Source: Candidatus Limicola stercorigallinarum
GTDB taxonomy: Bacteria; Actinomycetota; Coriobacteriia; Coriobacteriales; Coriobacteriaceae
Length of the DNA stretch: 37,653 nt
Assembly (NCBI GenBank): GCA_018711625.1
Contig: DVID01000022.1
Span: 1 to 37,653, forward strand
Direction of reading: 5' to 3'
Within the stretch, counting starts at the first letter, position 1; every line of letters begins with the position of its first letter. The position numbers were made by a program, and so were the translations under genes. A model generated the notes under the pieces. The model searched no databases. It worked only from the letters and a program-made list of their open reading frames with translations, and had not been told where the DNA came from. Positions 20,583 through 22,177 of this stretch are shown here, in pieces.

Positions 20583-20612
20583 CAAAGGCGTTATCGTGCT
20601 ACGACGCCTTTG
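20583..20612 (-). terminator. Hairpin overlapping the CPBP gene stop
   Basis: CAAAGGCGT (20583-20591) pairs with ACGCCTTTG (20604-20612), extended by CGT/ACG inside. It covers the stop codon of the CPBP protease gene and precedes the DUF1275 gene, so the two minus-strand genes are probably separate units. Confidence 0.5.
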
Positions 20613-21711
20613 GCAAGGGGCCGCGCGTGGCATCCCAGAAGAGCCAGGCGCCCGCCGCGCACATGAGCAGAGGGCCTACAACAATACCCAGATCGCCCAG
20701 CACTCCCAGCACGTTCACGAGCGGCGTCACCGCAAACGATGAGAGGTTGACTACCCCATGCAAAAACATGGAGTGAGCGAGCCTACCCGTGCGCCAAGCA
20801 ACCATCGCAAGCACAAACCCCGCGATGGTGGCGTAGCTTGTTTGGATGGGGTCACCGTGCAGCAAGCCAAACAGCAGCGCCTGCATCAATGCTGCAACGG
20901 CAAAGCGCACCACCGGAACGGGCCGCTCGGGCACAGAGGCCGGCTCGGGCAACGCGGCCGGGCCGGACGCGCTGGTACCGGTGCCTTCGGGCTCCTCATG
21001 AGGAGCCAGGGCATTACTGGCCGTTGGCACCTCGCACGTATGAGGCTCCTCGCTTGTCTTAGGCGTCTCGCACACCGCGGGCGCGTCGGCGGCCGCAGGG
21101 ACATCCAAATCCTTCGGAGCTTGCGGCGAACGGGGCTTCCGGATCCAGCGATTGCGCCAAGCGGGGCATACGCTCCGCAACGCAAACTCAAGCATCACAC
21201 CACGGCAGGTGAGCTCCTCGGTAAGCGGCGCCCCCAGCGCAAGCACCACCAGCGAAAGCACGTTGAAATCGTTTGACCCAGAGTCTTCGAGCATCTGCGC
21301 ATACTCGTTCATCATCTCTGGTATCACCGCAGTGAGCAGCGACAACACAACCGCAACAGCAAGCTGCATGCCCACACCCAGCAGTACCAAACCCGCAATG
21401 CGCTTCAGGCGCATGACAGGGGCGCCATCGAGGGGTAAGCGGCGCGCACGCAAAAACGAACGCGGCTCAAGCCGATGCCACCACCACCAGAACACAACGA
21501 AGCTTCCCAGCTGTACAAAAAGGCTCATATACAGTTCGAGCGCCGCCGCAGGCTTGCTACCCAGCGCGTTCGCGGTGAGATCGGCAAGCAGGTATGCGAG
21601 CGATTGCGTGAACAAAAGAACAACCACCTGCACGCCCAGAAACGCTGCAGCCGCACCCACGCATGCAAGAAGCCATCCCGCACCGCGAAGGATCTTTGCC
21701 CCCATACTCAT
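20599..21711 (-). CDS. CPBP family intramembrane protease
   Basis: A 370-residue polytopic membrane protein of the CPBP (CAAX protease / bacteriocin-processing, ABI) family. All three glutamic-protease motifs are present: EExxxR as Glu165-Glu166...Arg170 (TEELTCRG), FxxxH as Phe281...His285 (FGLLH) and HxxxN as His318...Asn322 (HGVVN). About 80 residues rich in Pro, Ala, Glu and Cys (187-266) are inserted between motifs 1 and 2, where typical members have only a short loop. The start ATG overlaps the stop of the upstream DinJ-like gene (ATGA), with AGGAGG seven bases before it inside that gene, so translation is coupled. The substrate is unknown; roles in the family include bacteriocin self-immunity and membrane-protein processing. 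Confidence 0.88.
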   Translation of the reverse strand: MSMGAKILRGAGWLLACVGAAAAFLGVQVVVLLFTQSLAYLLADLTANALGSKPAAALELYMSLFVQLGSFVVFWWWWHRLEPRSFLRARRLPLDGAPVMRLKRIAGLVLLGVGMQLAVAVVLSLLTAVIPEMMNEYAQMLEDSGSNDFNVLSLVVLALGAPLTEELTCRGVMLEFALRSVCPAWRNRWIRKPRSPQAPKDLDVPAAADAPAVCETPKTSEEPHTCEVPTASNALAPHEEPEGTGTSASGPAALPEPASVPERPVPVVRFAVAALMQALLFGLLHGDPIQTSYATIAGFVLAMVAWRTGRLAHSMFLHGVVNLSSFAVTPLVNVLGVLGDLGIVVGPLLMCAAGAWLFWDATRGPLPKAS

Positions 21712-21989
21712 GCCGCCACCTCCTGAGACGCCGCGCGCGCCTTGCCTCCGGGGCCGCCCGTACCATCAGGGCCACCATCCAGGGGCGCCGCATCCATGCC
21801 AGCAGCGCCAAGGCCAAAAGCGCCCGTGGGCGATATGTCAAACGGGAAGGTGCCGCACCGATTGAATGCAGCGATGAACATGCGGATGGCGTTTGAGGGG
21901 GTGGTTCCTACCCGCTGGGTTGCCGCCGCGAAGGCCGCCTTCTCTTCAGGCAAGACCTTCGCGACGACTGGGGTCATGTGTTCTGCCAT
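21708..21989 (-). CDS. DinJ/RelB-like antitoxin-type protein, no toxin
   Basis: A 93-residue protein whose first 55 residues read as a RelB/DinJ ribbon-helix-helix domain: VVAKVLPEEKAAFAAATQRVGTTPSNAIRMFIAAFNRCGTFPF is the DinJ layout (strand, helix, 'TTPSNAIRMFI' helix, then LPFD-like FPFD). The last 35 residues are a Gly/Ala/Pro-rich low-complexity tail in place of a DinJ toxin-neutralising region. No YafQ/RelE toxin gene follows; the CPBP protease does, with a 4-base overlap. AAAGGA lies seven bases before the ATG. A strong promoter and three tandem 10-bp repeats lie upstream, which suits autoregulation by a ribbon-helix-helix protein. It could be a plain transcription regulator of the protease. 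Confidence 0.75.
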   Translation of the reverse strand: MAEHMTPVVAKVLPEEKAAFAAATQRVGTTPSNAIRMFIAAFNRCGTFPFDISPTGAFGLGAAGMDAAPLDGGPDGTGGPGGKARAASQEVAA

Positions 21990-22111
21990 GGAACGTCCTT
22001 TATAGAACGACGGTGGTGTGTTTGCAGGTTAGGGCGTACGCGGGACTGTTGCACTACCCGATTTGATATGTCCCACGCACACCCGAGCCTTAGCTACAGT
22101 GTGCCATGTTG

Positions 22112-22141
22112 GTATTACTTAGTATTCCTTAGTATTACCCC
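22112..22141. promoter_or_regulatory. Three tandem 10-bp repeats, candidate operator
   Basis: GTATTACTTA, GTATTCCTTA and GTATTACCCC follow one another without gaps. The 10-bp period puts each on the same face of the helix. They lie at about +1 to +30 of the predicted minus-strand transcript of the DinJ-like gene. Ribbon-helix-helix repressors commonly bind such helically phased repeats, so self-control is likely. Confidence 0.55.
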
Positions 22142-22148
22142 GCTGCTC

Positions 22149-22177
22149 AGTATAGCAGGTGGCCCCTTAAAGGACAA
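22149..22177 (-). promoter_or_regulatory. Promoter of the DinJ-like/CPBP operon
   Basis: On the minus strand TTGTCC (22177-22172) and TATACT (22154-22149) are separated by exactly 17 bases, a near-consensus sigma-70/SigA promoter. The predicted start is near 22142, directly before the tandem repeats. Confidence 0.65.

Follow-up and report, generated by a model that had tools for sequence, protein, structure and literature searches.

A DinJ-family antitoxin whose toxin was lost long ago probably survives, judging from sequence comparison across the order Coriobacteriales, as a stand-alone autorepressor, with a CPBP intramembrane protease as its passenger. The gene lies in a stretch of 37,653 nucleotides from Candidatus Limicola stercorigallinarum (hereafter the window) at positions 21989–21708 of the minus strand, and encodes a solo RelB/DinJ-type ribbon–helix–helix (RHH) protein of 93 amino acids, an assignment that draws on Pfam RelB, orthologue comparison and an AlphaFold2 model. 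The standing annotation of the group to which it belongs, that is, RelB/DinJ antitoxin of a type II toxin–antitoxin (TA) system, is corrected by the present work.

The RHH group and its toxin–antitoxin relatives

The protein passes the cut-off of Pfam RelB (PF04221; 24.0 bits against 22.4) and does not reach that of NCBIfam TIGR02384 RelB_DinJ (24.1 against 45.65 bits), and its PDB matches are DinJ (9lew) and RelB (2k29 and 4fxe). Residues 1–59 are conserved and residues 60–93 form a variable tail. In the AlphaFold2 model, the two-helix core (helices 14–27 and 31–45) has pLDDT values of 82–86 and the Gly/Pro-rich tail (residues 59–93) is disordered, with pLDDT below 50; because a single chain was modelled, the inter-chain ribbon could not form. 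Two residues that are invariant in the group, K11 and S32, align with R7 and S28 of RelB, the former a DNA-contact residue and the latter located in helix 2 (PMC2812701).

Searches covered 120 relatives with the protein itself and 299 Coriobacteriales genomes with a profile. The profile delimits an RHH group that is present in 65 of the 299 genomes at 120–133 bits, the next homologue reaching 84.5 bits. Members spread over ten genera: by our count they occur in 42 of 67 sampled genomes of the window's family, the Coriobacteriaceae (named records among Collinsella and Enorma), and in 23 from a second family (f5, which includes Atopobium; named records among Atopobium, Olsenella, Olegusella and Parafannyhessea). 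The orthologue is single-copy in each genome, a second short match in genome G013 resembling a fragment. This piece of RHH core (L033; G013:C25:26733–26837) is frame-shifted within a ThrE-like gene approximately 2 kb 3′ of the intact gene, and would reflect recombination or an assembly chimera. Searches for a mobile origin gave no match in viral contigs or phages, and the sole ‘plasmid’ match, a 0.9-Mb Collinsella record, is probably chromosomal.

Over residues 1–59, identity is 93–98% in most members of the window's family; at the same loci it is 71–77% for CysK, 74–85% for DUF1275 and 25–46% for CPBP, and the RHH protein is more conserved than most neighbouring metabolic genes. The frozen part ends at about residue 59 in this family and about residue 52 in the second, and the tail beyond it differs in nearly every lineage. 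Given that third codon positions of the core are only about 0.63 identical and that dN/dS (orthologues against the window) ranges from 0.00 to at most 0.052 over dS values of 0.6–1.6, constraint acts on the protein itself. Although a lost toxin and a random tail might suggest a decaying TA remnant, or an annotation accident, without function, these dN/dS values and an operator conserved across two families make such a reading scarcely credible, and the selection data already contradict it.

The group resembles RelBE and DinJ–YafQ in its RHH fold signature, in a PF-D/E-I/L motif after helix 2 and in a repeat operator at the promoter, with self-repression expected (RelB by itself represses its own promoter; PMC2812701). 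Unlike these systems, it has neither a toxin gene nor a C-terminal neutralising segment, it is single-copy and near-frozen, and its operator consists of three 10-bp repeats, whereas relO consists of four hexads. The original prediction had described the protein as an orphan, and indeed no toxin gene lies 3′ of it in the orthologous loci, where the neighbours are CPBP, ThrE-like, DUF1275 or unrelated genes; the cognate toxin that adjoins the antitoxin in type II TA systems is missing from RHH loci. Other DinJ homologues of the order, 43–59% identical to the RHH protein, are full-length, and most lie beside a YafQ-like or GNAT-like gene. These TA homologues carry approximately 40 more C-terminal residues than the RHH group and retain the toxin-neutralising segment, which is absent from all RHH orthologues examined and replaced there by unrelated tails, a comparison that bears out the predicted substitution of a Gly/Pro-rich tail in the window. 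The alignments indicate that the group lost both toxin and neutralising segment and kept the RHH.

The closest homologue of the RHH protein (59% identity, 84.5 bits) belongs to a Coriobacteriales DinJ–YafQ locus (L163, in genome G108), which resembles the window's RHH in its β-strand, SPITAKL, and in an operator with GTACTAAGTAATAC, but differs in its length of 96 amino acids, full C terminus and overlapping YafQ-like toxin. At loci L177, L178 and L181, DinJ-like antitoxin genes overlap GNAT-type genes, a pairing of RelB-type antitoxin and acetyltransferase-like toxin. Among the publications searched, none joins Coriobacteri-, RelB and antitoxin.

Orphan antitoxins of Klebsiella, Mycobacterium and others likewise have no adjacent toxin, and have mostly been called degraded or been proposed as anti-addiction modules (PMC7354431); the RHH group departs from the former description in being conserved at the level of the order and in having a near-invariant operator of its own. 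An antitoxin acting in trans, which would neutralise or repress the toxins of incoming or unlinked TA loci, is consistent with the sporadic DinJ–YafQ loci in the same family, and with the similar operator of the homologous TA locus L163; however, the neutralising segment has gone from all orthologues examined and unrelated tails stand in its place, and 11 RHH genomes, including that of the window, have no YafQ match. Moreover, immunity genes usually diversify, whereas the RHH is frozen, and we consider this role very unlikely. The original prediction had also allowed that a toxin elsewhere might prove to be the true partner; YafQ is of patchy occurrence, and because of the same 11 genomes a hidden, unlinked YafQ partner is unlikely.

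Promoter, operator and leader

Sequence inspection and a promoter scan point to a sigma-70-type promoter upstream of the gene (22149–22177, minus strand), with TTGTCC at 22177–22172, a 17-nt spacer, TATACT at 22154–22149 and TG before the −10 box. The promoter is present as originally described, but ‘good’ suits it better than ‘near-consensus’, as it has 9 of 12 consensus matches (two such sites occur in 2.1 kb, against 0.8 expected). The operator, three tandem 10-bp repeats GGTAATACTAAGGAATACTAAGTAATACC (22139–22111, minus strand), starts 9 bp after the −10 box, which agrees with the earlier placement of the repeats at about +1 to +30 from the putative transcription start. With up to three mismatches, a 16-bp operator core has three overlapping matches in the window, all at the operator, against 0.04 expected. 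In a generic self-comparison the array shows up weakly, only a 20-bp-spaced pair being reported, and we judge the array real because it is conserved in 82 orthologous loci, not from internal similarity. In these loci, of which 42 belong to the first family and 40 to the second (related species are included, so that the loci are not independent of one another), the 29-bp operator is almost invariant, with columns 2–4, 7–8, 17–18 and 25–28 invariant or nearly so, and in most of them its offset from the −10 box is 8–9 bp.

Several TA homologues of the order also have 10-bp-repeat operators. Proteins with a TESISAKL β-strand have ACAATGT-type repeats, and SPITAKL (L163) goes with repeats resembling those of the window; this variation of operator sequence with the β-strand lends support to the view that the predicted RHH ribbon recognises the repeats. 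Genome scans used a pattern of two adjacent near-consensus repeats, which weak or single sites would escape. Nearly all RHH genomes scanned show the pattern at the RHH promoter, and elsewhere in the scanned genomes it occurs only at the rate of a reversed-pattern control; RHH-less genomes yielded only scattered matches at chance level, and 12 second-family genomes gave the same picture, with one own-promoter match weaker. Since the operator is conserved in 82 loci and occurs nowhere else above chance in the genomes scanned, putative single-target negative autoregulation by the RHH protein is strongly supported, as is the self-repression through the repeats that had been predicted. The frozen DNA-binding core would also suit a wider transcription factor that controls further genes from single or degenerate sites, its own promoter being just the strongest, and E. 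coli DinJ has been reported in PMC4996492 to act as a global regulator, with an effect on RpoS levels as well. However, no second above-chance site appears at the two-repeat level and the extra matches away from the RHH promoter resemble coding sequence; we regard a wider role of this kind as possible, but rather unlikely.

The 5′ leader is predicted to fold into a hairpin (22032–22084, minus strand; fold z = −2.4) with a 15-bp stem and a 23-nt loop ending in GTAGTGCAACA (22057–22047). In Coriobacteriaceae leaders, approximately 20 nt separate the hairpin from the operator on its 5′ side, and usually about 33–37 nt separate it from the ATG on its 3′ side; its stems (about 7–30 bp) are unrelated in sequence between lineages, with pairing kept and position nearly fixed. 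When arms were exchanged between species, the mean pairing energy was −11.2 kcal/mol, whereas the two arms of one leader reached −26.5 kcal/mol on average; in this comparison, the stem could not be picked automatically for three leaders. Some relatives' leaders are no stabler than shuffles, and Rfam gave no match in the RHH leader. The loop ends in GTAGTGCAACA in three genera and in CCCAGCCGC in another large genus. Between operator and start codon (window 21990–22110; leaders L220–L258), AAACGNAGCA-like motifs occur in 11 of 42 and 17 of 40 leaders of the two families, where shuffling predicts 0.19 and 0.07, counts that are uncorrected for relatedness; several second-family leaders have no obvious Shine–Dalgarno sequence.

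The loop sequence GGTAGTGCAACA (22057–22047) and TGTTGCACTACC, which several genera have in their conserved rplU (L21) leader (near G000:C4 41055–41065; L107 and L131), are exact reverse complements. Pairing between the two RNAs was considered and rejected: as there is no co-variation and the rplU sequence persists in the large genus whose loop differs, the complementarity is probably coincidence. Most family genomes conserve CTGTTGCACTAACnGATGCATGAAGGG strongly in their rplU leaders (L122–L162), and this sequence may be an L21 leader element.

The neighbouring CPBP gene

The RHH stop overlaps, in an exact ATGA as originally noted, the start of an intact gene for a CPBP (Rce1-like) intramembrane protease of 370 amino acids (21711–20599, minus strand; Pfam PF02517, E = 3e-12). 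The protein shares the EExxxR, H and HxxxN motifs of CPBP/Rce1-like proteases (for example, MroQ), with E165, E166, R170, H285, H318 and N322 invariant in eight CPBPs compared; it scores under every NCBIfam equivalog cut-off and is not tied to the RHH gene. An Ala/Pro-rich insert between the catalytic motifs (approximately residues 190–265; window ~20917–21140) is long only in the window's genus. After a gap of 107 bp follows a gene for a DUF1275 protein (20491–19796, minus strand), which we do not claim to be within the regulated unit; in four relatives that lack CPBP, DUF1275 is the gene directly 3′ of RHH.

The original prediction envisaged a dedicated two-gene module, in which the RHH protein regulates or is switched by the protease, or in which the protease replaces the toxin. 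Profile searches of the 67 family genomes give this some substance: by our count, a high-scoring CPBP is present in 34 of the 42 RHH genomes, in 32 of them directly 3′ of the RHH gene (contig ends block the check in G045 and G057), despite CPBP identities of only 25–46%, and the catalytic residues are intact. Yet the other 8 RHH genomes have no CPBP of this family and keep RHH and operator, with DUF1275 or a ThrE-like gene next door, while 16 of the 25 RHH-less genomes keep CPBP, in several of them with an apparent promoter of its own and a short leader. No CPBP was found near the RHH gene in any Atopobiaceae-type locus examined, all of which have RHH and operator; ThrE and DUF1275 are likewise not near, and the neighbours vary. 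A scan of genome contigs with a single CPBP sequence as query gave no match. The RHH core, furthermore, is frozen while CPBP drifts. Co-occurrence is thus not obligate (8 genomes with RHH only, 16 with CPBP only): the adjacency is old, yet each gene lives without the other. Conservation of both repeats and pairing had been proposed as a check, and the repeats are kept in 82 loci, but the pairing in 32 of 42 and in none of the Atopobiaceae-type loci examined. We consider a dedicated module unlikely, and the presence/absence table and the RHH-less CPBP loci lead us to reject the ideas that CPBP replaces the toxin or is an obligate partner. The best-supported view is that CPBP is a frequent but dispensable neighbour, a putative passenger in the window's lineage. 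Being just 3′ of the RHH gene and often overlapping its stop, it is probably on the RHH transcript, and co-transcription from the RHH promoter in the window's genome, in a predicted operon, is plausible.

Proposed autorepression and its meaning

For the stand-alone autorepressor that we favour, we propose that RHH dimers bind the three 10-bp repeats just 3′ of the −10 box, contacting DNA through the N-terminal β-strand ribbon, and that the bound protein blocks transcription initiation or escape. By blocking its own promoter, the protein would hold its level constant, and CPBP, which would share the transcript where it lies just 3′ (as it does in the genome of the window and in most relatives of Collinsella type), would come under the same feedback. 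A protein this strictly kept probably does more than regulate itself; the two-repeat pattern revealed no second target in the scanned genomes, and our guess is that a further protein partner, or a signal, acts on the frozen RHH surface and is presumably what keeps the protein. With low confidence, we further suggest that the order-wide domesticated antitoxin might serve as a private one-promoter feedback sensor, in which the frozen RHH dimer has no DNA site other than its own operator, a conserved partner or signal relieves repression and the leader RNA forms a second layer of control.

Orphan antitoxins are commonly written off as debris or taken, as a guess, for anti-addiction genes. The one described here has become a fixed chromosomal gene in two or more families of bacteria from gut and mouth, and has a near-invariant operator. 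With it, the use of an antitoxin without a toxin can be tested directly in Collinsella, Atopobium and Olsenella, which can be cultured.
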